Shown here in pieces: positions 24,665 through 51,231 of a stretch of 54,781 nt of DNA. The notes below the pieces were generated by a model, which saw only the letters and a list, made by a program, of their open reading frames with translations, was not told where the DNA came from and ran no database searches. Within the stretch, counting starts at the first letter, position 1; each line of letters starts with the position of its first letter. Origin of the DNA: Methanobrevibacter millerae (GTDB taxonomy: Archaea > Methanobacteriota > Methanobacteria > Methanobacteriales > Methanobacteriaceae); contig NZ_FMXB01000017.1 in assembly GCF_900103415.1 (NCBI RefSeq), positions 1 to 54,781 on the forward strand, written 5' to 3'. The translations under genes and the position numbers were made by a program.

Positions 24665-24852
24665 GACAATATTCATTAATTTCACTACTTTTTACTCCCA
24701 CATTCAAATATTGCTCTAAGAGAGTAATTTTTAAAAATTACTTGTTTATTATAATATTTACTTCAAAGTAGAATACATATATTTTTATATATTGTTTAAC
24801 ATATTTTTAATCTCAAACAAGCCATTTCACCAAATTTCAGGAGGTGGTTAAA

Positions 24853-24960
24853 ATGTATTATTTTTTAATGTTTTTTGCATTTGATCCATATCCTTTTTAC
24901 AAATGGAGGTGTCGTCAATGGATGCGGATTTTAACATGTCGTTGGATGTTAATGAACTGA
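24853..24960 (+). CDS. Small ORF (35 aa) with strong ribosome site, possible leader peptide
   Basis: AGGAGGTG at 24839-24846 precedes ATG 24853 at the normal distance. The peptide (MYYFLMFFAFDPYPFYKW...) is aromatic and basic with no recognisable domain. It overlaps the next small ORF out of frame by 43 bases and contains that ORF's ribosome site, so it may act as a leader controlling it. A TATA-like stretch lies near 24775-24795. Confidence 0.4.
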   Translation: MYYFLMFFAFDPYPFYKWRCRQWMRILTCRWMLMN

Positions 24961-25073
24961 TATGGGCGTTAATTTTTATTTTTTTGGTCCAAAAATCCGA
25001 TTTCCTTGTTGTTTTAGGGAATCTCATTCTGATGATTTTGTTCAGGTTCATATTCCGTGATGATACCGGATAA
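24918..25073 (+). CDS. Small membrane protein (51 aa), unknown
   Basis: GGAGG at 24905-24909 lies 8 bases before ATG 24918. The 51-aa product has two hydrophobic stretches (residues ~14-24, LIWALIFIFLV, and ~29-46, ending LILMILFRFIF) and charged ends (MDADFN..., RDDTG). It resembles no family I know; such small hydrophobic peptides can be regulators of membrane complexes or toxin-like. Too short for the usual length cut-offs. Confidence 0.5.
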   Translation: MDADFNMSLDVNELIWALIFIFLVQKSDFLVVLGNLILMILFRFIFRDDTG

Positions 25074-25082
25074 TATGTGAGC

Positions 25083-25158
25083 GAGAAGCTATTAAGGTAT
25101 GGTTTAAGGAAATTCGTAGATTTCCCGTGGTTTGTTTTACCGCCTGAAACGGCTTCTC
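25083..25158 (+). ncRNA. Nested stem structure after the small membrane protein gene
   Basis: Three complementary pairs nest: GAGAAGC (25083-25089) with GCTTCTC (25152-25158), GGTA (25096-25099) with TACC (25138-25141), and GGAAAT (25108-25113) with ATTTCC (25120-25125) around TCGTAG. It could be a 3' UTR element or an independent structured RNA. The sequence is more G+C-rich than its flanks. Confidence 0.35.
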
Positions 25159-25217
25159 CTTACCTATTATTTCCTAAAAATAACTGTTTAAATGTTGAAT
25201 ACATCATGATTAGTTAA

Positions 25218-25389
25218 TTATAAATACCATGGCATTATTATATATTAAGTGATGAAGTTAATTTTTTAACTTCTAATCCATTTTGTAAATAAATGCTGAT
25301 GTCATCTACGAATATTGTGTTTTCGACACAATATTGACATTAGCCACTTAAACTAATTTTAAAACCAATATTACCTACTTTTAAATAAA
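25218..25389 (+). repeat. Tandem unit 1 of 3: TATA box plus hairpin RNA
   Basis: The unit starts with TTATAAATACC (25218-25228), then ~30 bases later the hairpin GAAGTTAA-TTTT-TTAACTTC (25254-25273). A long stem-loop follows (25295-25344) with outer arms GCTGATGTC/GACATTAGC and inner arms AATATTGTGT/ACACAATATT around TTTCG, then ACTAATTTT. It lacks the small middle hairpin of units 2 and 3. A transcript of ~107 bases (25254-25360) is inferred. No ORF. Confidence 0.6.
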
Positions 25390-25558
25390 TTATAAATACC
25401 ATAACCCCCATTATATAATAATTGAAGTTAATTTTTTAACTTCCACACTTTTGGTGGAAAAATGCTGATGTCATCTACGAATATTGTGTTTTCGACACAA
25501 TATTGACATTAGCCACTTAAACTAATTTTAAAACCAATATTACCTACTTTTAAATAAA
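25390..25558 (+). repeat. Tandem unit 2 of 3: TATA box plus hairpin RNA
   Basis: Same order as unit 1: TTATAAATACC (25390-25400), GAAGTTAA hairpin from 25424, an additional small hairpin CCAC...GTGG, and the long stem-loop 25464-25513. The long stem is identical to unit 1, including the ATCTACG bulge. Inferred RNA 25424-25529. Confidence 0.6.
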
Positions 25559-25712
25559 TTATAAATACCATAACCCCATCATATAATAATTGAAGTTAAT
25601 TTTTTAACTTCCACACTTTTGGTGGAAAAATGCTGATGTCATCTCCGAATATTGTGTTTTCGACACAATATTGACATTAGCCACTTTAAACTGATTTTTA
25701 AATCCACATTAA
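25559..25712 (+). repeat. Tandem unit 3 of 3: TATA box plus hairpin RNA
   Basis: TTATAAATACC (25559-25569), GAAGTTAA hairpin from 25592, CCAC...GTGG hairpin, and long stem-loop 25632-25681. The only change in the long hairpin is A to C in the bulge (ATCTCCG), outside the paired arms. Inferred RNA 25592-25699. It lies just downstream of the convergent permease gene's stop. Confidence 0.6.
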
Positions 25713-39249: not shown

Positions 39250-42162
39250 TTAGTCTTTGGTGAAGTAGTCATAGAGCTCATCCTTAACCGGATTGTCTAT
39301 TTTGAATGTGAAATTAACAATAGGCTTGTCCTTGCCGCCGATATTTCTGTAAAGCTGCTTATAGGTAAGGGGAGTTAATTTTCCGATATAGTAAAACTCG
39401 ATTCCCTCATCATTGTTTTTCTGTATGAACAGTTCAACATCCAGGTCGTTATAATTAATTAACGCTTCCAGTTCGGCAGATGAGGTTTTTCTGTTGTCCC
39501 TACTCATCCATGAGAAGCATTCCTTGCTGATGAACTGATCATCATAATTTATCGTTTCTGAAATGTCTTCGGCCTTATTGTAGGTTACAAAGATAGGGCA
39601 CGTATTGTACTTTATTTTATATCCGCCGATATTCTGGCCATTCATGAAGTGTTTCCAGTTCAAAAGCCTCAATACGTCTTCACGGGAGTATTTTTCATAC
39701 AGCTTGAACGGCTTTTCGTCCCTGTAATAGTTTTCATATTTGAATAATGCGTAATTAACCGCATCCTCAAAGTGCCTTAAATAAGTCGGATTGGCAAGGC
39801 AGTTCCAGAAGTAATCCGAAATCGTAAAATCGTCATTAAAGAATATGTTTTCATAAGGGATGGCATCGCCCACAAAGCCCTGAACGGTATTTGCCTGATA
39901 GCCATCGCCGTTTTCTTTTCTGTAGAAATTCAGGCTCAAAAAGTTAATGGCTCCGTTAATTGAGTCATTTTGATTATCAAGGCCGTAAATTTCATTTAAA
40001 CATTTTTCAATCATTTCCATGTTGAAATACTTATTGTATCTCAGGCAGTTGAGTATTATCATTTCATGAGGCCTTATTCCTTTCAGGAGCTTTTTGGAAA
40101 TCAGCTTTAATGAAGCTATTTGAGCACTGTCAAGCTCTCCTGTGTAGTCATCGTCAACATAACTTAAAAATGAATGGTATGAATCGAATTTCTTGTGTGA
40201 GAGAATGAGTTCGGGATTGAACTCTGCGTTAACGGCAAAATCATAAAGCGAAGGGATTTTACCCAGTTTGAATTTAAGGTTGTTGTATTTCTCCTTGAAA
40301 AGTGCGATTTTGGAAAAGGATGTGTTGTTGATTGATTCGAAGATTCTCCTTTTTGAAATCTCATCGAAGTTGATTGAAGATGCGCCGGGAATGATTTTGT
40401 TTCCCTCCATCAAATAGCGCCTCAGATTGTCCTTGTCGTATGACCTGTCTCCTGAAAGTGCCAATGGAATCATGAAGTTGTTTTTGTAGTTTCCGATGAA
40501 ATCTAGGATAACGACGAATTCCTTGCTTTTGAATTTCCTAAGGCCTCTTCCCAGCTGCTGTATGAAGATGATTGGGGATTGTGTCGGCCTTGCAAGGATA
40601 ACCTGGTTGATTTCGGGAATGTCTACACCCTCATTAAAGATGTCTACAGTGAATATGTATTCCAGATTGCGGGGATTGGCGTCGTTGGTTAGTCTGTCAA
40701 TCGTCTCTTCACGGTAGGCCTGTGAGTCCTCGCCCGTTAATACCTCGGACGGATGGCCTCTCCTGTTGAATTCGGTGGCTAACATTTTGGCTTCTTTTTT
40801 TCTTGAACAGAACACTAAAGCCTTTATTCTTTCACCGGAATATCCATAGAACTCTGACTTTTCAAGAAGGTAATCAACTCTTTTATCGGATGCCAAACAA
40901 TTGAAATCAGTGAAATTGTCATCTATGACTTCGTTATCAAAAGTGACATCTTTTATTCCGAAATAATGGAACGGACATAATAAATCCTCTTCCAACGCCT
41001 CCTGAAGCCTGATTTCATGGGCGATATTGTGATTAAAAAGTTCGTAAATGTCAAAGCCGTCTGTACGCTCAGGCGAAGCGGTCATTCCAAGGTAGAACTT
41101 AGGAGTGAAATAGCTGAAAATCTTCTGATAGGACAATGCACCGGCCTTGTGAACCTCGTCGATTACGATATAGTCGAATTCGTCACTTTTAAATCTCGTG
41201 TAGACGTCACCCTTGGATAATGTCTGGATGGTTGCAAAAATGTAGTCGCTTTTAAAATCCTTATTATTACCGGTTAACATTCCAAATGATTTGTTTTTTA
41301 TAACGTTTTTATAGGCATTAATTGATTGCTTTGCGATTTGTTCCCTGTGAACGATGAATAAAAACCTTTTGGGATTGAAATCCCTTACCGCAAAGGCTGA
41401 AGCGTAGGTCTTACCCGTTCCCGTTGCGGAAACGAGAATTGCTCTTTTCTCACCCTGCTTTATCAAGTTTCTTACGTTTTTAAGGAATTCCTCCTGCATG
41501 GAATTGGGAGCCAAATCGACAATGTTACTTTTCCTTAATTCCTCTGTCGTTTGCCTTAATTCCTTGAAATTCTTATTGTCGTTGTAGAGCTTTTCATAAG
41601 TCGGAAGAATTTCATCCAAATCATGTGATTTGCTCCATAATTCGTTGAATTCATTTAACAGGTTGATTATGATTTCGCCGTCGCCGTTTGTGCTAAACTC
41701 GACATTCCATTCCTTGTTTTTGGTAAGAGCTGAAGCAGTCAGGTTGGAGCTTCCCACAATTGCCAAATATGAATCGTCTCTTTTGAAGATATATCCTTTG
41801 GTGTGAAATCCTTCATTTTCGGTTGTAAACATTCTGATTTCGATGTTTTTGAATTTATTTAATTTTTTTAATGCTTTGGGCTCGGTAAAGCTCAGATAAT
41901 CCGTGGTTAATATCTTTCCCTTAACGTTTTTCTTTTCAAGAATTTTCAGCTCTTCCAGCAAAGGCGTGATTCCGCTTAAGTTAATGAAAGCGGTTGATAT
42001 AATGAACTCATCACAGGTTCTGAGACGATCTATGATTTCGTTTCTGACTTTAGAATCTTTAGAATTGAAAAGCAGCTTCGGCTTAAAGTCCGGACTGGAT
42101 TTGTATGATTCGTCAATGAATGCCGTCCTGGCTCCGTTTAAGATGTCTTCTTCGATGTTCAT
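39250..42162 (-). CDS. PLD-nuclease / DEVH helicase of the DUF3427 type
   Basis: A 970-aa protein. The N-terminal phospholipase-D-type domain (~50-170) has FHTKGYIF (HxK) and GSSNLT. A superfamily-2 helicase core follows (~215-560): SATGTGKT Walker A, IDEVHK box, GMTASPERT, and QQLGRGLR near its end. The long C-terminal part fits DUF3427. Such PLD-helicase proteins cut or remodel DNA and are often in defence islands. Its ATG overlaps the Nudix stop by ATGA, and that gene overlaps the 105-aa gene, so the three are a coupled unit. Confidence 0.8.
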   Translation of the reverse strand: MNIEEDILNGARTAFIDESYKSSPDFKPKLLFNSKDSKVRNEIIDRLRTCDEFIISTAFINLSGITPLLEELKILEKKNVKGKILTTDYLSFTEPKALKKLNKFKNIEIRMFTTENEGFHTKGYIFKRDDSYLAIVGSSNLTASALTKNKEWNVEFSTNGDGEIIINLLNEFNELWSKSHDLDEILPTYEKLYNDNKNFKELRQTTEELRKSNIVDLAPNSMQEEFLKNVRNLIKQGEKRAILVSATGTGKTYASAFAVRDFNPKRFLFIVHREQIAKQSINAYKNVIKNKSFGMLTGNNKDFKSDYIFATIQTLSKGDVYTRFKSDEFDYIVIDEVHKAGALSYQKIFSYFTPKFYLGMTASPERTDGFDIYELFNHNIAHEIRLQEALEEDLLCPFHYFGIKDVTFDNEVIDDNFTDFNCLASDKRVDYLLEKSEFYGYSGERIKALVFCSRKKEAKMLATEFNRRGHPSEVLTGEDSQAYREETIDRLTNDANPRNLEYIFTVDIFNEGVDIPEINQVILARPTQSPIIFIQQLGRGLRKFKSKEFVVILDFIGNYKNNFMIPLALSGDRSYDKDNLRRYLMEGNKIIPGASSINFDEISKRRIFESINNTSFSKIALFKEKYNNLKFKLGKIPSLYDFAVNAEFNPELILSHKKFDSYHSFLSYVDDDYTGELDSAQIASLKLISKKLLKGIRPHEMIILNCLRYNKYFNMEMIEKCLNEIYGLDNQNDSINGAINFLSLNFYRKENGDGYQANTVQGFVGDAIPYENIFFNDDFTISDYFWNCLANPTYLRHFEDAVNYALFKYENYYRDEKPFKLYEKYSREDVLRLLNWKHFMNGQNIGGYKIKYNTCPIFVTYNKAEDISETINYDDQFISKECFSWMSRDNRKTSSAELEALINYNDLDVELFIQKNNDEGIEFYYIGKLTPLTYKQLYRNIGGKDKPIVNFTFKIDNPVKDELYDYFTKD

Positions 42163-42731
42163 TTTATGTTTTCGATTTTTATGGTGTTTAAAATTTCAAT
42201 GCTTCTGATTTCAGCGTAAATGAGTTCCCTTTCGAACTTGTCATCCGTTTCGTCATACAATTTGTATAGCGCTTCCAGATCGTATCCGACCTTCATCATC
42301 TTCTCATCAATGCCTTTCATCTTTTCCATGATTTCCTCGTTTGAAAGCATTGTTTCTTTCAGGTAATTGACAGCTGCGATATCGGCAGGAATCCAGTTAA
42401 CGTCGTCCAATTCGGCTTTTGAAAGCCATCTGGCATCATTGTGCTCAAGAAGCTTTGGGGTTCCGCTTTTGATAATGCAGTCATAGCAGCTCATCTTGAG
42501 GTAGAATGTAGGGTACTGATATTCCAAATCCAAAGCGAAATTAGTGATTTCTATTTCAACGTTGAGCTCTTCTCTGATTTCTCTGATTAATGCTTCCTCT
42601 TTGGTTTCGTTTTCCTCAATCTTTCCGCCAGGAAACTCCCACTGGTTGATGAATTCCCCATAGCCCCTTTTGGTGGCTAGAATCTTGTCGCCCTTGTGAA
42701 TAATAGCTGCAACAACGTTTAAAGTCTTCAA
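42159..42731 (-). CDS. Nudix hydrolase (MutT-like NTP pyrophosphohydrolase)
   Basis: A 190-aa protein: Nudix domain at residues 1-~130 with the box GGKIEENETKEEALIREIREEL, plus an extra C-terminal helical part (~135-190). These enzymes remove damaged or unusual nucleoside triphosphates. The start is TTG 42731, which overlaps the upstream stop (TTGA) and has GGGG 7 bases before it; a longer reading would add 20 residues lacking family character. Nudix genes are often found beside DUF3427 helicases, so a joint role is likely. Confidence 0.8.
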   Translation of the reverse strand: MKTLNVVAAIIHKGDKILATKRGYGEFINQWEFPGGKIEENETKEEALIREIREELNVEIEITNFALDLEYQYPTFYLKMSCYDCIIKSGTPKLLEHNDARWLSKAELDDVNWIPADIAAVNYLKETMLSNEEIMEKMKGIDEKMMKVGYDLEALYKLYDETDDKFERELIYAEIRSIEILNTIKIENIK

Positions 42732-43045
42732 TTTAATTCCCCGATTTGAATGAATCTGCGAAATCTTCCATCGATTTCGACTGATTTGCATTTGGTCTTG
42801 TTGAATAGTTCGGATATTTCATTTAAGAATTTCTTATCTTCTTCTTTTATATTTGAAGTGTTAATTTGGTTTAAATCCTCTTTTGAAAGCCTTATGCAAA
42901 ATTCGTCATGCAAAAAATCCTCATCAGTGTCAAAAAGCATCAGTTCATTAATAAAAGGATAGAATAAGTTAACGTTACAGTTGCTTTTATGGATTGTAAG
43001 CTGATTTTCATCGTTGATTGTTGAAATGGAAATGTTGCATAACAT
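42728..43045 (-). CDS. Small protein coupled to Nudix and helicase (unknown)
   Basis: A 105-aa soluble protein starting MLCNISISTINDENQL, with an acidic middle and a C-terminal EIDGRFRRFIQIGEL strand. I recognise no domain. GAGG precedes the ATG and the stop overlaps the TTG start of the Nudix gene. It is the first gene of the trio, or the continuation of the large operon that ends 61 bases upstream. Confidence 0.6.
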   Translation of the reverse strand: MLCNISISTINDENQLTIHKSNCNVNLFYPFINELMLFDTDEDFLHDEFCIRLSKEDLNQINTSNIKEEDKKFLNEISELFNKTKCKSVEIDGRFRRFIQIGELN

Positions 43046-43106
43046 TAATTAAAACCTCTAATTAAATATTATGCGGCCCACGTTATAAATTTGGTGATAA
43101 ACAATA

Positions 43107-43949
43107 TTACCAATTCTTAGAATATTGTTTATCTGCAACTTCAGAAACTAATCCCAAATCAATTAATGTAGGCAAGTTTTTATTAACAAGAGGCTCTAAA
43201 CTTTTACCTTCCACACGATAAGCTTTAAGACGATCTACTTCCAGTAAATCATCAAACGTAAATACATCACTATCCAAATCATCTATGGAATCAAATAATA
43301 ATTTTGACCATCCTCTGAGATTGGAAGCGATTTCTTTAGCTTCATCAGGATCCAATTTGGTAATGCCAGATAAATCTACTCCAGCGGAAGATTCTTCCTC
43401 TTCTTCAGTTATGAAATAAGTATTGTCTCTCAACCTATCAAATACATCATATTCAACATCATTACCAATGATTAATTCTTTTAAAATAAATTCTAAGCTA
43501 AAATTATCCTTTTCGGAATTTTTAGCAATATCCTGATAATTAATAAACAGGATTACTTTAATGGATTTGCCGCCAACACCACCAATTCTAAATGAATATT
43601 GGTTATTTCCAATTTGAACCATAATTGGGTAAGTTTTAATTCCATTTTTATTGGACATGGCTCTTAATTTTAATTCATTAGGATTTTCTATCATTACTTT
43701 TTTATTTCCGGACGGATCAACAATTATCTGTTGAATAGCCGCCTCAAAACCATTTGAATTACCGTCCTTAATTCCTTTAATGATTTCATTATAGAAAAAG
43801 TATTTACTTATTAAAATAGCTTGTTTCCCAACACCAGTTATCTGAAAATCATAACTTATATCACCCATAGGAATATGGAAATAAGAGTTTTTTAATTTTG
43901 ACCTGTTTTCTAATGATCTTTGCCTTAATTCTTCAACTGAAAGCCCCAT
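43107..43949 (-). CDS. Protein with two 'GVG' domains (unknown), copy 2; last gene of the H-ABC-ABC operon
   Basis: A 280-aa protein. Two copies of the same domain as in the 37661-38263 gene: YDFQITGVG...AILISKYFFYNEII (residues 33-57) and YSFRIGGVG...SIKVILFINYQDIA (118-142), each followed by a helix. The C-terminal ~90 residues form a different, probably helical domain (FTFDDLLEVDRLKAYRVEG...LPTLIDLGLVSEV) that could be a winged helix. Start ATG 43949 has GGTGAG upstream; the longer MWVSI start does not. It lies 27 bases after the C2 gene, so it belongs to that operon and may be its target-recognition or effector subunit, which is inference. Confidence 0.65.
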   Translation of the reverse strand: MGLSVEELRQRSLENRSKLKNSYFHIPMGDISYDFQITGVGKQAILISKYFFYNEIIKGIKDGNSNGFEAAIQQIIVDPSGNKKVMIENPNELKLRAMSNKNGIKTYPIMVQIGNNQYSFRIGGVGGKSIKVILFINYQDIAKNSEKDNFSLEFILKELIIGNDVEYDVFDRLRDNTYFITEEEEESSAGVDLSGITKLDPDEAKEIASNLRGWSKLLFDSIDDLDSDVFTFDDLLEVDRLKAYRVEGKSLEPLVNKNLPTLIDLGLVSEVADKQYSKNW

Positions 43950-43976
43950 AATACTCACCCACAATAACTACTTAAA

Positions 43977-44414
43977 TTAACCGATTTCATGTGAATCAAA
44001 TTCATTAATCAACTTTTCCTCCAAAACTTCTGTAAAATCAGTATCTTTATCGAAATATACTTTATTCAAAACTTTAATTCCTTCATTCGCATATTTTTCG
44101 GCAATATCAAGCATTTTATCAATATCCCCCAATACATTAACATCCTCTTCTTCATACAATGCAAATGCTTTTATCATATTCCATGAATCATCATCAACAC
44201 TCTCTATACGTATAAAACCCTCATTAGCATCGGAAGAAATATTTTTTAATGAGCCTTTACCTTTTTCTTTAAATCCTAAAACCATAGCCATGACAAATAA
44301 CTCACTATTAGATGCTTTGCTTAAAATACCGTTAGCAGTTTTAATAGATTGATAAATTTCACGATCTTTTTTTCTTATAAAAATCCTATTTTTTGTTTTT
44401 TCATCATCTGTCAT
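43977..44414 (-). CDS. Component C2 of the duplicated ATPase module (unknown)
   Basis: A 145-aa protein. The basic start RIFIRKKDREIYQSI, then NSELFVMAMVLGFKEKG, and later VLGDIDKMLDIAEKYANEGIKVLN. Both later blocks align with C1 (46606-47070), so the two are paralogues. Size and position behind a DndD-like ATPase recall DndE, but I see no clear DndE motif. It overlaps the B2 stop by 11 bases and is co-translated with it. Confidence 0.65.
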   Translation of the reverse strand: MTDDEKTKNRIFIRKKDREIYQSIKTANGILSKASNSELFVMAMVLGFKEKGKGSLKNISSDANEGFIRIESVDDDSWNMIKAFALYEEEDVNVLGDIDKMLDIAEKYANEGIKVLNKVYFDKDTDFTEVLEEKLINEFDSHEIG

Positions 44415-46377
44415 TTAAAACAACCTCGGAATGTGTGCCTTCTTTTGATTCATTAACTTTAATATAATACTCTTTACCGACTTTAGGAGCAATACCATGT
44501 TTGAAATTTTCATTGTACTCCTCATCAGTAACTAAAAGAGTAACTTGTCGACCTTCCATATATTCAGGCAATGTTTTAGAAATATTATTTTTCATTTCAC
44601 TGCCCAATCTTCCCATAGGAGTATCGATTATAAATGGTAAATAGAAGCCAGAAATATTATTTAATGCAGAAACGAAAGATAATGCCAATACTAACTTTTC
44701 ACCTGCAGATAAAATACCTGGGGAGGAAATTTCACCAACAACATCTTTTACTTTAACATCATAATTTCTACTAACCAAAACTTCTTCAAAATTATCTTTC
44801 CACATCAATTTTTTAAATTGGCTTGTAGTTAAATCCTCAACTTGAGAACGAATATTTTCAGAAAGATTGCCTTTTAACTTCTCAATTTGTTTAATGGCTC
44901 GAGTACAAAAAGCATTTTTATTATTCAACAATAAAACTTTTTTATCCCTAATTTTTATATCTCTTTCCATGCGTTCAAGACGTTCTAACTTGCTTATAGC
45001 ATCCTTATAATCAATATCTGCCTTAGTTCTTTCAGAAATTTTAGTAGATTTTAGTTCTTCTTTTTCAAGAATTTCTTCATTTAATTTTTTTATTTTAGAT
45101 TTGTCAATTCCTTCAAAGTTATATTGATTAAATTTAAGATCTTCCCTAACCTCCATTAAATCTTCTTCATAAATAGAAATATCCTCATTAATTGAATTTA
45201 AATTTCTTTTAAAATCTTCTAATTCAATTAACAGCGTATTGAATTCTCTTGAAGAGTCTTTAACCTTATCAAATACATTGTTTAAATTGGAAACCGATTC
45301 CATAAGATGTTCTAAATGATGATATGCATCGTCATTCTCTGAAAGATCACAACCACAAATACATTGTTTTTTATTTAAAATATGTTCTAAAAACTCAGGA
45401 CTATATAATGAATTAAATAGTTCCTCATTATCTGAATCACATATTTCAGAACCATATTTCAATGCAGGAAACCCTAAAACAAATGAAACATTCTTAACTA
45501 AAAACTTTTCTTTTTTCTCTTTTGTTTTATCAATATTCTTAATTAATCTTTGTTCATCCTTTTGTAATCTGGTTCTTTCACGTTCTAACATGGATACATC
45601 TTTATTATCTGCTTGACGTAACTCCTTTTTGAGTTCTATTAATTCTGTATTTAACGTTTCAATTTCACTATCTATTTTGTTTCTCTTTTTTAGAGAAACT
45701 CTCATTTTAGATTCGAGATTATTTCTATCAGTCAGGAATTTACCTGTGTTTTTATCCAACTTATTTAAATCACGAACATATTCCTTTCGTCTCATTTCCA
45801 AATTACTTAATGCAGAATCCAACAAATGTAATTGTGACAACTGATAAACGGAATCTTTAATGGAATTTTTAGATGTTACATCAAAATAATCTTCAAGTTT
45901 TTCACCATCGAAAAAGAAATATCCTTCAATATCAATCGGCAAATTATTGTTCACAAATAATTCTGGACGGGTTAAATTCTCATCCTGCATTTCTTGATAT
46001 ATTTGAAAGTTAGATCCATGAGGATCCTGGAAAATTTCTCCTTTTGAATCGCAACGGAAGTTTAATGAACGAGTACAGATGATTCTGAAGTCGTATTCAT
46101 CAACTAATGTAACTTCAACTTTTACATCAAAATTTTCATTAGGTTTTGTTTGATTTTTAGTTATTAAATTATAAATTGGACCTTTACCGGTTGTTTGGGA
46201 TTTGTGGAGTTCTTTACCATAAAAACACCAAGTTATTGAATTCAAAAGATTCGTTTTACCTGCACCATTTGTACCTTGAATAATTGTGAAATTTTTATCT
46301 TCATCCACACTGAATTCTATTTCAACAGGCCCCTTATATTGCCTATAATTTTCAATTTTTATTGATTCAATCCTCAT
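44404..46377 (-). CDS. Component B2: DndD/SMC-like ABC ATPase with Cys hook
   Basis: A 657-aa ATPase of the RecF/SbcC/DndD type. P-loop GTNGAGKT at 35-42; two long coiled-coil stretches (~185-310 and ~370-490) around a hook with CICGC; ABC signature LSAGEKLVLALSF; Walker B FIIDTPMGRLGSEM, close to the DTPLGRLDS form of DndD. Such proteins use ATP to act on DNA ends or loops. It is paralogous to B1 but closer to the consensus in the P-loop. Start ATG 46377 is one base after the A2 stop. A heterodimer with B1 is likely, by inference. Confidence 0.8.
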   Translation of the reverse strand: MRIESIKIENYRQYKGPVEIEFSVDEDKNFTIIQGTNGAGKTNLLNSITWCFYGKELHKSQTTGKGPIYNLITKNQTKPNENFDVKVEVTLVDEYDFRIICTRSLNFRCDSKGEIFQDPHGSNFQIYQEMQDENLTRPELFVNNNLPIDIEGYFFFDGEKLEDYFDVTSKNSIKDSVYQLSQLHLLDSALSNLEMRRKEYVRDLNKLDKNTGKFLTDRNNLESKMRVSLKKRNKIDSEIETLNTELIELKKELRQADNKDVSMLERERTRLQKDEQRLIKNIDKTKEKKEKFLVKNVSFVLGFPALKYGSEICDSDNEELFNSLYSPEFLEHILNKKQCICGCDLSENDDAYHHLEHLMESVSNLNNVFDKVKDSSREFNTLLIELEDFKRNLNSINEDISIYEEDLMEVREDLKFNQYNFEGIDKSKIKKLNEEILEKEELKSTKISERTKADIDYKDAISKLERLERMERDIKIRDKKVLLLNNKNAFCTRAIKQIEKLKGNLSENIRSQVEDLTTSQFKKLMWKDNFEEVLVSRNYDVKVKDVVGEISSPGILSAGEKLVLALSFVSALNNISGFYLPFIIDTPMGRLGSEMKNNISKTLPEYMEGRQVTLLVTDEEYNENFKHGIAPKVGKEYYIKVNESKEGTHSEVVLNDR

Positions 46378-46378
46378 T

Positions 46379-46564
46379 TTAATCCTCTTCTGAAAAAACT
46401 GAAATGTGCTTATTATATTCCTCTGAAATAGTTTTCTTGGTTTTACCAGGTTTATTATAAAGCTCTAATTCATAATTAAGAATCTCTTTTAAAAAGGATT
46501 TCATATCATCATCACACTTTAAATTAGAAATCCCTTCTTTAATATCCTTATTTAAATGATCCAT
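46379..46564 (-). CDS. Component A2 of the duplicated module (61 aa, unknown)
   Basis: A 61-aa helical protein (MDHLNKDIKEGISNL...DDDMKSFLKEILNYELELYN...). The segment DDDMKSFLKEILNYEL aligns with DDNLKQFFINAIIYEL of A1 (49037-49216), so both are copies of one family. GAGGT precedes ATG 46564. It stands directly before the B2 ATPase. Confidence 0.65.
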   Translation of the reverse strand: MDHLNKDIKEGISNLKCDDDMKSFLKEILNYELELYNKPGKTKKTISEEYNKHISVFSEED

Positions 46565-46605
46565 GATAATACCTCACAATATAAAAATAAATTGAAATAA
46601 AAGAA

Positions 46606-47070
46606 TCATAAGTCCAATTCTTTCAATTTATTAATAATTCTATCGTCTTTATTTAAATCCAATATTTTGATTCTTAATGTTTCAATGAATTCATCAGCGC
46701 CACTAAGATATTCTGAGTTTAAATAGTCTAACCCCCCATTAGCATATTCTTCTGCAACTTTATAAATATCAGAAGGGGTTTCACCTAAAATATCAATACC
46801 TTTATCAGTTTTGGTTATTGCCAATGCATTAATTAAAGAAGGTAAATCTTCACCAAAATTCTCTTTATTAGCGAAATTATCTTTAATTACAAGAGGTGTT
46901 CGGATATTGTTTTCATAACCAAAAGCTAATGCTAAAGTAAAGATATCCCTAGTGTATTTTTTCTTTTTACTGCTTAATGGTCCAGGACGTTCTAATAATC
47001 CATTATATGTTTTATTTGTTCCATCTTCACGACTCAATCTAGATGCAACAGTTTTTTCTTTACTGCTCAT
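46606..47070 (-). CDS. Component C1 of the duplicated ATPase module (unknown)
   Basis: A 154-aa protein: basic N-terminal part (LSSKKKKYTRDIF), TLALAFGYENNIRTPL, and a C-terminal ILGETPSDIYKVAEEYANGGLDYLN block that aligns with C2. Start ATG 47070 has GGAG at 10 bases; it overlaps the B1 stop by 11 bases. Function unknown; presumed partner of ATPase B1. Confidence 0.65.
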   Translation of the reverse strand: MSSKEKTVASRLSREDGTNKTYNGLLERPGPLSSKKKKYTRDIFTLALAFGYENNIRTPLVIKDNFANKENFGEDLPSLINALAITKTDKGIDILGETPSDIYKVAEEYANGGLDYLNSEYLSGADEFIETLRIKILDLNKDDRIINKLKELDL

Positions 47071-49036
47071 GTTTAACAATCTCCGTTTTATTTTCAGCTG
47101 GTTTTAATTCATATTCTTCAGAAACATTTTCTAACATGCTTGCTCTTACATCATTCGTATATTGGCTGTCAGTAAACAAGAAAATAATTTGTTTGTCTTT
47201 AGTGTACTCATGTAAATCAGAAATAAAGTCAATACGTTTACTTTTATCTAATTTTTCTAAAGGAGCATCAATGATTAATGGTATTTCGAATCCACTAAGA
47301 CTATGCAATGCCATCATAAAAGATAATGCCAGTAGATTTTCTTCACCGTCAGACAAATCTCCAGGACGTATTTTTTGTCCAGAACTTTTAGTTACCCGTA
47401 TCCTATAATCATCTTCGATATTTACATCAGTATACTTATCATATTTCCAATCAATTCCAATAAATTGATCACGGATTTTAGATGTGACTTTATCTCGAAT
47501 ATGTTTTTGTACATCATAATTTAATGTAGATACAACATCTACAGCAGACTCACAAAATTCTATTTTTTGATTAATTTCCCTTAATTTCTCATTTGCTTCT
47601 TCAATATCATCTCGTTTCTTTTTAAGTTGAACAATTTCATTTTTTAACCTTTCAATATCCTTACCGATTATTGTATTTCTATCCCTTAATCTCTTCTTAA
47701 CTTTAACATTATTATCCCTATGCTTTTCATATTCGTTAATATCCGCAATATCAATTGAAATCAATTCCTCAGAAATTTCAGAAATCTCATTTTCTACAGC
47801 AATCAAATGAGCATTGTTTTCTTCAAGTGTTCTTCGCATATTGTCGATTTCATGAATATTCTCTAATTTTTTCAATGTGCTTTTTATATCATAATAATCT
47901 TTGTAAAATTCATCTGTTTGAACTTTAGTAGTCTTTCTTAATCTTTTATGTAATTCTTCAACACATTCAGGATGATCTTCTAATTTTACACCACAAATAC
48001 AATATCCATCATCCAAAATATCATTTAACAATGTTCTTTCAATTAAAGGAGGAGCTGTTTTTGTTTCACGGGATTTGTCAGCAATTTCTATAGCCCCAAT
48101 TAATTCATCAAATAAAACAGCAATAGGATAAATTTCCAATATTAAATTCTCATATTTTACAGTATTTGTTTTAATTGAAGTAGATAATGATATTTTCTCC
48201 TTTTCCAAAACACTTCTACGATTAGTTAATTCTTTAACATGCTTCGAATCGGCTTTTTTTAATTTTTCGTCCAATTCTAATATTAATCTTTGAGCCTCAT
48301 CAATTTTTATATGATTTGCTTTCCTTTCATCTTCCAGGTCTTTCCTTTCAGATATTTTTTTATTGATTAATTTATTATAATTTACTGGACCTTCAGGACG
48401 TAATTTATCATATTGTTTATTAAGATTATTTAATGTTTTTTCCAAATGATCAGCCATGCTATTTACTAAACCAACTTGAGATATCTGTTCAATGGAATTT
48501 TTCAAATTTAAATCAGAATCGCTTTCAAAATAATTGGATAATGTCGCACCATTGAAAAAGAAATAATGAAACATGTTTTTCGGAATCTTATTATTAATAG
48601 CATTTTGAGCAATATCCTGATCCATAGGTTCCTTACCGGTTTCATCTACAATCAAATGGCTTGTTAATTCTGCTGACCATTGATCATCCTCCCATTGTTG
48701 ATATTTAACTTCCCTATCAACCACGAAATATTTTTTATGATTATCTGCATCAAAATAATAAAATCTAATTTTAACTTCAACATTTATTTCATCATACCCT
48801 TCAGCTTCCGCAATTTCTGCTGCCTTAAGATTATAAATAGGTTCAGATTTGTCACGAACATCATGAAGCTCTTTACCATATAATGCCCAGGTTAATGCAT
48901 TAACCAAAGAAGTTTTTCCACTACCATTATCTGCTAAAATAATTGTTAAATTTTCTTTTTCATTAAATCCGAAATCAATTCTTTGAGTTCCATAATAAGG
49001 GCGAAAATTAGTTATTTCAATATAATCCAGAAACAT
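47060..49036 (-). CDS. Component B1: DndD/SMC-like ABC ATPase with Cys hook
   Basis: A 658-aa paralogue of B2 with the same order: P-loop ADNGSGKT at 35-42 (Ala where Gly is usual), coiled coils, hook CICGVKLEDHPEC, signature LSDGEENLLALSF, and Walker B LIIDAPLEKLDKSKR. Length matches DndD (~660 aa), but no DndC-type sulfur-transfer gene is present, so DNA phosphorothioation is not supported. ATG 49036 abuts the A1 stop. The P-loop and Walker B differences from B2 suggest the two ATPases have split roles. Confidence 0.8.
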   Translation of the reverse strand: MFLDYIEITNFRPYYGTQRIDFGFNEKENLTIILADNGSGKTSLVNALTWALYGKELHDVRDKSEPIYNLKAAEIAEAEGYDEINVEVKIRFYYFDADNHKKYFVVDREVKYQQWEDDQWSAELTSHLIVDETGKEPMDQDIAQNAINNKIPKNMFHYFFFNGATLSNYFESDSDLNLKNSIEQISQVGLVNSMADHLEKTLNNLNKQYDKLRPEGPVNYNKLINKKISERKDLEDERKANHIKIDEAQRLILELDEKLKKADSKHVKELTNRRSVLEKEKISLSTSIKTNTVKYENLILEIYPIAVLFDELIGAIEIADKSRETKTAPPLIERTLLNDILDDGYCICGVKLEDHPECVEELHKRLRKTTKVQTDEFYKDYYDIKSTLKKLENIHEIDNMRRTLEENNAHLIAVENEISEISEELISIDIADINEYEKHRDNNVKVKKRLRDRNTIIGKDIERLKNEIVQLKKKRDDIEEANEKLREINQKIEFCESAVDVVSTLNYDVQKHIRDKVTSKIRDQFIGIDWKYDKYTDVNIEDDYRIRVTKSSGQKIRPGDLSDGEENLLALSFMMALHSLSGFEIPLIIDAPLEKLDKSKRIDFISDLHEYTKDKQIIFLFTDSQYTNDVRASMLENVSEEYELKPAENKTEIVKHEQ

Positions 49037-49216
49037 TTATTCATCCCCTCCAGATTTAATGGCTGATTCAATCATCGTAGTATATGCTGCGGTGAATTGT
49101 GTTTTATTCTGATTTCTTAACTCATATATAATTGCATTAATAAAAAATTGCTTCAGATTATCATCCAAATCAGCATTATTTATATAATCAATTATTTCAA
49201 GATTCATTTTTGTCAT
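49037..49216 (-). CDS. Component A1 of the duplicated module (59 aa, unknown)
   Basis: A 59-aa helical protein (MTKMNLEIIDYINNADLDDN...) whose ATG overlaps the helicase stop by ATGA and whose stop abuts the B1 start. It is missed by a 60-codon cut-off. It aligns with A2 over the DDxxKxFFxxxIxYEL segment. The small size and fixed place before each ATPase suggest an adaptor or antitoxin-like partner. Confidence 0.65.
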   Translation of the reverse strand: MTKMNLEIIDYINNADLDDNLKQFFINAIIYELRNQNKTQFTAAYTTMIESAIKSGGDE

Positions 49217-51231
49217 TTACATTCCTCCCATTTTTCAATGAATTTCCTACTGCATTCTGAAAAATTATCTGCTAAATCAGCATATTCATCATAACGACGT
49301 TGTTCGTTACGAAATATACTTTCTACAGAGCTAGATTGATCTTTCATGCATGGAAATACAATTAAATCATAAATATTAGCAATTTTTTTACCCGGACTAT
49401 TTCTCAATATCCTACCTCTTCTTTGAATATGTTGTCTTGAATTCAAAGTACTGGCCATTAATAATGCAGTTTGAGTAGAAGGAACATCAACTCCCTCATC
49501 CAAACATTTGATAGCTACCAACGCGTGATAATGACCCCTTGCAAATAATTCCAAAATTCTATCCCTTTCAGATTTCCCCCTAACTTTTTTTGTAGATTCC
49601 TCACCAGTGAATTTTTTATTTGGAATATCCAAGTCCTCTAAAATCTTTTGAACTTTAGGCAATTGTTCACCAGTGCAGTAAATAATCAAATCTTTCATAT
49701 CAGAATTTTTTGATAAAAACTCTTTTAAATAAACCATTTTAGCTTTAGCGTTATTGACCACATTCCTCCTTTTAATTAAAAATGTTTTTAACTTATTTTC
49801 ATCGTTAACGGATTTATTCTTTTTATTTATCAACCTAACGATTTCATAAGTATAATATTCATACTCACGCAATTCCTCGTTGTCCAAATCAATAAATTCA
49901 GGATAATAATTATAATGAGTTAAAAAACCATTATCAATAGCTTTTTCCAAATCATATTCATAAACAACATTATTAAATGTTTCATAAACAAAGTCATTTC
50001 GTTCAAAATCGTCTTCAATCTCCGGAGTAGCACTTAATCCTAACTTATAAGTGTAGGGAACATCAAATCCTTTTCTAAATTCAGAAGACCCAATTCCATG
50101 AACTTCATCAACAATTACTAATGACTCTTCACCATATAAAGACATGTTTTTAATGAATTTCTGATTGCTGAATGTGTTAAATGTGGTAAATATGACCACA
50201 TTCTTCTTTAAACCAGATTTTAAATCTCCAATCAAACCCAATAATTGAGACTTCCATTTTGGATTATCTCCCGATGCTACAAGAGTTTCTCCTTTAAAAT
50301 TAAATTTTTTAAGATTTTCTTCCCATTGACTAATCAAATGCTTTTGAGGACAAACAATAACCGTCAATAATTTGGATTTTTTCCTTTTTAAATAATCAAA
50401 GCATGATAAAGCAGTTATAGTTTTACCTGTACCCGTAGCCATACTTAAAATACCATGATAGTTATTATTTACCCAACTTTCTAATGCCTCATTCTGATAT
50501 TCCCTTAAAGTAGGTTTTGAACTTAATTTTAAGCTTAAAACATCGTTTTTAGATTTTGGAGCAAATTCGATTAATTTACGTTTACTGGCTTCAGGCACAT
50601 CAAAAATTTCTAAAGAAGGATTTAAACCATCCCAAAAATCTTCAAAATCCCGAATATCATCTTCCATATATTCAGAATTTCTCCAACTCTTAAAAATTTT
50701 TAATGATTCAATATTATTCCTCCAACCAGATGCAGTTTCATTTACTGAACCATTGAACAATATTGAGTCGTCTTCATCATCATACATTATGCCAATTTTA
50801 GAATGAAGCATTCCTGGTTCATAAAACCCATCATCTTTAACATTGACTCCAATTTTAATATCCAAATAACCATTAGCAATCATCCAACCCAAGATTTTTA
50901 CATGATTCTTAACTATTTCATCCTGAATTGAATTATAATCCCTTAAAAATTCTTCATGTATCAAATCTTTTAATTCATCAGCATTATTGATTGATTCCAA
51001 ATCGTCAGCATCAAGCTTAGCTCCACAAATAAGACGCATTTTTCCATCGTTTTTTACGAATTTGTCAATGCCTTCGGCAGCAACTGCCAAACTTGTAGAA
51101 TTAAAAAAACCAGAAATCCTATCGTATTTTACAGACTCCGATAATACGATATTATAAAAATCCTCAACAATATCATCATTAGCTGAATTATAACTAGGCT
51201 TCAAATCCGAATCAATATTTTTAAATGACAT
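49213..51231 (-). CDS. Component H: PLD-nuclease / DEVH helicase, first gene of the ABC-ABC operon
   Basis: A 672-aa protein. N-terminal PLD-type domain (~1-200) with MLHSKIGIMYDD (HxK) and FNGSVNETASGW (GSxN). SF2 helicase core (~240-640): MATGTGKT, IVDEVHG, LGLSATPE, and the final QRRGRILR arginine-finger motif. It resembles the helicase at 39250-42162 in design but lacks the DUF3427 tail and is ~300 aa shorter. Typical of restriction-like or anti-phage systems. It opens an operon of eight genes with overlaps or gaps below 45 bases. The promoter must lie in the GATC-rich gap upstream. Confidence 0.8.
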   Translation of the reverse strand: MSFKNIDSDLKPSYNSANDDIVEDFYNIVLSESVKYDRISGFFNSTSLAVAAEGIDKFVKNDGKMRLICGAKLDADDLESINNADELKDLIHEEFLRDYNSIQDEIVKNHVKILGWMIANGYLDIKIGVNVKDDGFYEPGMLHSKIGIMYDDEDDSILFNGSVNETASGWRNNIESLKIFKSWRNSEYMEDDIRDFEDFWDGLNPSLEIFDVPEASKRKLIEFAPKSKNDVLSLKLSSKPTLREYQNEALESWVNNNYHGILSMATGTGKTITALSCFDYLKRKKSKLLTVIVCPQKHLISQWEENLKKFNFKGETLVASGDNPKWKSQLLGLIGDLKSGLKKNVVIFTTFNTFSNQKFIKNMSLYGEESLVIVDEVHGIGSSEFRKGFDVPYTYKLGLSATPEIEDDFERNDFVYETFNNVVYEYDLEKAIDNGFLTHYNYYPEFIDLDNEELREYEYYTYEIVRLINKKNKSVNDENKLKTFLIKRRNVVNNAKAKMVYLKEFLSKNSDMKDLIIYCTGEQLPKVQKILEDLDIPNKKFTGEESTKKVRGKSERDRILELFARGHYHALVAIKCLDEGVDVPSTQTALLMASTLNSRQHIQRRGRILRNSPGKKIANIYDLIVFPCMKDQSSSVESIFRNEQRRYDEYADLADNFSECSRKFIEKWEECK

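Follow-up and report, generated by a model that had tools for sequence, protein, structure and literature searches.

Tandem small RNAs of Methanobrevibacter millerae as probable antisense partners of a type I toxin-antitoxin-like module

Three tandem repeat units in a contig of Methanobrevibacter millerae (GCF_900103415.1, contig NZ_FMXB01000017.1, positions 1-54,781, forward strand; this whole stretch of 54,781 nucleotides is called the window) probably represent three antisense small RNAs (sRNAs) of a type I toxin-antitoxin-like module with leader coupling in the style of hok/mok/sok, a type I toxin-antitoxin system of plasmid R1 and the E. coli chromosome. The anatomy of the units, their RNA family, the cassette with its coding-like peptide, the covariation and the cognate antisense coevolution at ribosome binding sites (RBSs) were computed here. 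Separate transcripts, a translational block and coupling between two overlapping reading frames, ORF1 and ORF2, are predicted from the sequences.

The units lie on the plus strand at 25218-25389 (u1), 25390-25558 (u2) and 25559 to about 25720 (u3). A preliminary description had read this region as three tandem units of ~170 bp, each with a TATA-like box and hairpins, and this was confirmed by sequence and folding; the repeat starts given there were also found, TTATAAATACC being located at 25218, 25390 and 25559. Each unit begins with a TATA-like box recognised from the sequence (25218-25228, 25390-25400 and 25559-25569), and across 25 cassettes a TATA box is conserved ~30 nt before the predicted 5' end of the sRNA. 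This is followed by an 8-bp hairpin, H1 (25254-25273, 25424-25443 and 25592-25611), supported by folding in all units and, for u1, by pairs that persist with changes in homologues; the 21-nt hairpin sequence TGAAGTTAATTTTTTAACTTC at 25253, 25423 and 25591 is identical in all three. Next come a linker of ~20 nt (25274-25294, antisense to the SD2 region described below, in u1; 25444-25463 and 25612-25631, identical to each other and antisense to the SD1 region, in u2 and u3) and a 50-nt stem-loop with a 7-nt bulge on its 5' side (25295-25344, 25464-25513 and 25632-25681), indicated by folding and family covariation. As the preliminary description had stated, the stem is the same in all three and the only difference is an unpaired base, A>C in u3, inside the bulge. 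The fold z-scores were -7.5, -5.8 and -6.1, and none of 200 shuffles folded equally well. The identity of three copies, taken alone, could reflect a recent duplication, and constraint on the unit is read from the covariation of divergent homologues (58 members) instead of from the match among the three copies.

The earlier statement that there is no ORF held inside the units and failed directly upstream of them, where two overlapping mini-ORFs with strong Shine-Dalgarno (SD) sites were found on the plus strand. The candidate TATA box of this mini-gene, TTTTATATATTG at 24783-24794, was assigned by sequence and by analogy with the TATA box conserved in 25 aligned cassettes. SD1 (GGAGGTG, 24840-24846), the pairing partner of ACTTCC in the hairpin arm of u2/u3, leads a leader ORF1 of 35 aa (MYYFLMFFAFDPYPFYKWRCRQWMRILTCRWMLMN, 24853-24960); other cassettes likewise have an ORF1 that is led by an SD and overlaps ORF2. 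SD2 (GGAGGTG, 24905-24911) leads ORF2 (24918-25073), which encodes a hydrophobic peptide of 51 aa (MDADFNMSLDVNELIWALIFIFLVQKSDFLVVLGNLILMILFRFIFRDDTG), the proposed toxin. The only clear homologue of this peptide that was detected (39% identical, E=2.6e-4) is encoded in genome G052, where the closest relative of the sRNA (L056/L025) follows it directly, and the window is a member of a divergent subfamily with a longer peptide. The mRNA has a structured 3' domain (25075-25175; MFE -29.5 kcal/mol, z -3.3). By position it is the counterpart of the 3' domain of other cassettes, in which the closing stem shows covariation. Elsewhere in the window, at 39250-51231, two ResIII/PLD-domain helicases (one with DUF3427) and two AAA_23/SMC-like ATPases form a cluster reminiscent of a defence island.

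A blastn search with the unit gave no further copy in its own genome, 40 relatives, plasmids or phages, an exact-pattern search with mismatches across the genus returned only the three known copies, and Rfam at gathering and loose thresholds gave no family match, with chance snoRNA-like matches only. A covariance model built from the three copies, the search of related genomes that the preliminary description had proposed, revealed diverged relatives that share this anatomy, among them two more copies in the same genome. After two rounds of refinement the model had 176 matches (E<=0.01), spread over 46 of the 67 Methanobrevibacter genomes, with up to 11 per genome; these E-values are rough (short calibration) and most of the genomes are draft or metagenome assemblies. 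Model R3 extended the family to two further genera of the Methanobacteriaceae, with matches in eight genomes of the one and a single genome of the other, and the genus-restricted family indicated by model R2 was dropped on the result of this better model. A consensus pattern matched 45 contigs among ~85,000 species, 40 of them Methanobrevibacter. This RNA family is thus absent from Rfam and is found in Methanobrevibacter and two other genera of its family. In an alignment of 58 members fitted to the model, 97% of pair cells were standard and 14 of 20 pairs were changed on both sides; the number of such pairs was 6.0 in shuffles and never above 7 in slid controls. The same shape appeared when the first homologues were folded without constraints. 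Assignments as H/ACA or C/D guide RNA, attC, ribozyme, OMEGA RNA and type III repeats were dropped for mismatched anatomy. The earlier proposal of independently transcribed, multi-copy structured sRNAs gains support from the conserved putative promoter, the hairpins, the covariation and the family of ~176 copies.

Upstream of many of the sRNA copies, at a constant spacing, lies a conserved mini-gene, a cassette of ~450 nt. The cassette mRNA carries two overlapping mini-ORFs, and the second encodes a hydrophobic peptide, 25-33 aa long compared to 51 aa in the window. The alignment of 25 loci revealed, from the 5' end, a TATA box, a 5'UTR with CTTCAACAAGCTTTAAATA, the element AAAGGCCTC and SD1 with the leader ORF1; then SD2 (GGAGGTGAA) inside ORF1, ORF2 (25-31 aa), the anti-SD element TTTTCACCTC and the closed 3' domain; and finally a second TATA box followed by the sRNA with H1 (AGAG..ACCTC), linker, stem-loop and T-run. 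TATA-like boxes, candidates for separate promoters of the two transcripts, are conserved upstream of both mRNA and sRNA in the 25 cassettes. The 5' element of the mRNA pairs with the 3' domain, and both this pairing and the closing stem of the 3' domain showed compensating variation between cassettes (permutation p=5e-5 for each). In the predicted fold of the L090 mRNA, SD2 is hidden in a helix with the anti-SD element. ORF2 looks protein-coding across the family: its pN/pS was 0.54 in frame, lower than in the two alternative frames (0.84 and 1.74), conservation was highest at the second codon position, and the peptides share a consensus like MELIIFIIGTYxFNI.... A further cassette with a different peptide, MDFRASFEVKINVSLKALVFICFWIIKILMQN, was observed in the genome of the window (L258, G000:C6:46100-47000), and its sRNA linker is antisense to TCACCAACTTAAAGGGAGG (-21.3 kcal/mol). 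Two loci (L094 and L107; G002:C12 and G048:C156) carry two tandem sRNAs after one cassette; the linker of the second sRNA has no match to the local SD2 and may address another mRNA.

The pairing of sRNA and mRNA was analysed with isolated linkers, because the signal from full-length sRNA x mRNA duplexes was too diffuse to read; the query was the linker with the H1 arm, and the target sequences differ between cassettes. For 23 cassettes picked by their peptide alone, the best duplex site was SD2 with ~12 upstream bases in 21. The mean duplex energy was -22.1 kcal/mol with the own mRNA and -13.8 kcal/mol with the mRNAs of other cassettes, these energies ignoring accessibility and competing structure. 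In a set of 34 cassettes, the longest pair run within the 16 bases before SD2, anti-SD letters excluded, averaged 10.9 for cognate combinations and 5.6 for other cassettes, and the observed sum of these runs was not reached in any of 100,000 permutations; because some cassettes are close relatives, the counts are less than fully independent. The set of 34 was partly assembled after the pairing had been seen, and the tests on the 23 cassettes and on 39 held-out copies are therefore cleaner. Among these 39 copies, found later by the model, the best site lay at SD2 in 25, compared to 27% for non-cognate combinations, a control that includes many close relatives; the 14 that do not score at SD2 include several without a detectable cassette. 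Of five loci tested in another genus, four pair over ~14-17 bp at the position equivalent to SD2, and the hydrophobic peptide encoded after this site is a different one; loci of a second genus, g15 (L275, L276, L277 and L279), share the architecture but encode hydrophobic peptides of their own, e.g. MSIQKKFWIGVVFYLLYLLVIYSMLMLVFLRLV. In longer linkers the 3' portion showed a cognate-specific match to the bases before SD1 (permutation p=5e-5), as in L237 (linker ATCTATTAGTTT, pre-SD1 AAACTAATGGAT) and L140 (linker TTGATTAGAATT, pre-SD1 AATTCTAATCAA); since long linkers match this site as well as SD2, one RNA can address both RBSs. Antisense pairing of the linker with the SD sites of its own cassette is strongly supported by this coevolution.

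In the mechanism that we propose, the upstream mRNA would carry the leader ORF1 overlapping ORF2, and ORF2 would supply the short hydrophobic membrane peptide, the putative toxin. Since SD2 lies inside ORF1, leader translation probably makes SD2 accessible, in the way that mok acts on hok. Each sRNA, with its own presumed promoter, two hairpins and an unpaired linker, would pair through the linker with the SD site of its own mRNA, and because the pairing covers the SD, a block of ribosome binding and translation is predicted. In other members of the family a single long linker often matches both SDs, and in the window u1 would act on SD2 and u2/u3 on SD1. We lean towards the wider interpretation of a large archaeal type I toxin-antitoxin-like family, in which the downstream sRNA is bivalent for leader and toxin RBSs and the window splits the SD2 and SD1 roles among u1 and u2/u3.

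Formal membership of the type I class requires toxicity. The identification of the peptide as a toxin, and its insertion into and action on the membrane, are predictions from its sequence. Type I toxins are small hydrophobic peptides, mostly shorter than 60 aa, for which a transmembrane helix is predicted (PMC8309996), and the size and hydropathy of the family peptides and of the 51-aa window peptide agree with this description; all 21 of 21 peptides were strongly hydrophobic (17-residue hydropathy 1.4-2.6). The antitoxin of such systems is an RNA antisense to the toxin mRNA, which corresponds to the cognate linker-SD pairing and coevolution seen here. Such an RNA keeps the toxin from being translated or speeds the decay of its mRNA, and the overlap of pairing and SD predicts the former for this module. 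Orphan RNAs also bear on this question. In the genome of the window, two tandem family RNAs lie downstream of an adhesin-like gene (L053 6385-6734, G000:C4), where no SD-led peptide ORF was found; at the orthologous G009 locus (L054) a 30-aa peptide ORF is intact. Further orphan sRNAs were observed at L090:2821-2898 (-), L117:1164-1240 (+) and L116:752-831 (+), and their linkers match peptide-SD targets of other species' cassettes over 12-13 nt; these RNAs are possibly antitoxins retained without toxin. The pattern at the C4 locus, together with orphan linkers matching peptide genes of other species, fits an addiction module. The strongest competing explanation, to which we give a minor but real share of belief, keeps the same antisense module and takes the peptide as a harmless small membrane protein whose level the RNAs tune. 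The antisense evidence is silent on toxicity, and the peptides have no homology to known toxins (no match in Pfam, NCBIfam or PADLOC). However, copies that are tandem, multi-copy and species-variable, with distinct cognate pairs and with orphan RNAs that have outlived their peptide gene, are usual for addiction modules, and the size and hydropathy fit membrane-acting type I toxins (PMC8309996).

The pairing in the window itself rests on few tests with short sequences, and most weight comes from the family. The u2/u3 linker found its best site in the whole mRNA at SD1 with TTTCACCAAA (24825-24834, plus strand, just upstream of SD1; -20.0 kcal/mol), with p=0.0006 against shuffles of the variable linker. 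The best mRNA site of the u1 linker was TTTACAAATGG (24896-24906, plus strand), upstream of and reaching SD2, at -11 kcal/mol and p=0.03 there; this pairing is short with one bulge and is unexceptional over the whole mRNA (p=0.4). Thus u2/u3 match SD1 and u1 matches SD2 weakly. The weak u1 pairing and the single ORF2 homologue are what a decaying copy might also present, with u2/u3 still pairing with SD1 and with u1 and the peptide as drifting relics. This is improbable, as ORF1, ORF2, both SDs, the three presumed promoters and all hairpins are intact, and u1 and its homologue fit their own different SD2 and not each other's: the L056 linker pairs with its own SD2 at p=0.009, and when the u1 and L056 linkers were swapped both pairings fell to chance (p~0.35).

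The preliminary description had instead suggested free-standing sRNAs controlling the neighbouring surface genes, and adhesin-like genes do flank the units. This is now very unlikely, since neighbours vary by locus, family members adjoining unrelated genes that we take from their ORF sequences to be mch, cysteine synthase, hisS and shikimate dehydrogenase, and the linker is antisense, family-wide, to the mini-gene RBSs of its own cassette. A passenger repeat of MITE or REP type, with hairpins lacking RNA function, of which the MITE had been named earlier, would suit copies that are scattered and tandem, but compensatory base pairs, cognate coevolution with the own mRNA, the conserved promoter and T-run, and zero matches of the consensus pattern in viral contigs leave it next to no credence.

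The antisense module favoured here shares with hok/mok/sok an overlapping leader ORF with a short hydrophobic peptide, long-range pairing of the mRNA 5' and 3' parts with a hidden SD, and a small antisense RNA that blocks the translation start, the block and the leader coupling being proposed for the archaeal module. It differs in its archaeal host and in an RNA that is encoded downstream on the same strand with its own presumed promoter, is not a complement of the mRNA, and has as its antisense part a short linker between two hairpins. It was not placed in the hok/sok family proper, as the peptide matched nothing in Pfam, NCBIfam or PADLOC and the RNA nothing in Rfam. In tisB/istR, shoB/ohsC and zorO/orzO a separately encoded sRNA has limited complementarity near the toxin RBS, and this arrangement is shared by the archaeal module. 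Tandem repeats are shared with the LDR cassettes of E. coli ldr/rdl (PMC4147584). The RNAs of these four E. coli systems are divergent or antisense to the toxin gene, whereas the archaeal RNA lies on the same strand, has a conserved bulged stem-loop and often has a separate antisense segment for each of two SDs. ToxIN (type III) likewise has RNA repeats in tandem next to a small gene, but its repeats are short, lie ahead of the gene for an RNase toxin and bind the protein (PMC4147584), in contrast to ~170-bp repeats with presumed promoters of their own that pair with mRNA. According to its abstract, sRNA162 of Methanosarcina mazei is an archaeal sRNA with two distinct target-binding domains that targets a regulator mRNA and other genes, unlike the peptide cassette here, and that abstract describes no toxin role and no repeat family (PMC3510493). 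According to a 2025 paper, type I systems had been found in Proteobacteria, Firmicutes and Tenericutes only, until the cyanobacterial candidate that it presents (PMC12390103); our literature search of open-licence papers found no archaeal one.

Rumen and gut methanogens thus carry up to 11 copies of this RNA per genome, many with a distinct antisense address. The many natural cognate and non-cognate pairs are a resource for testing RNA specificity, and the module offers a system for studying RNA control of archaeal translation starts. It may also be a growth-control device in major methane producers.
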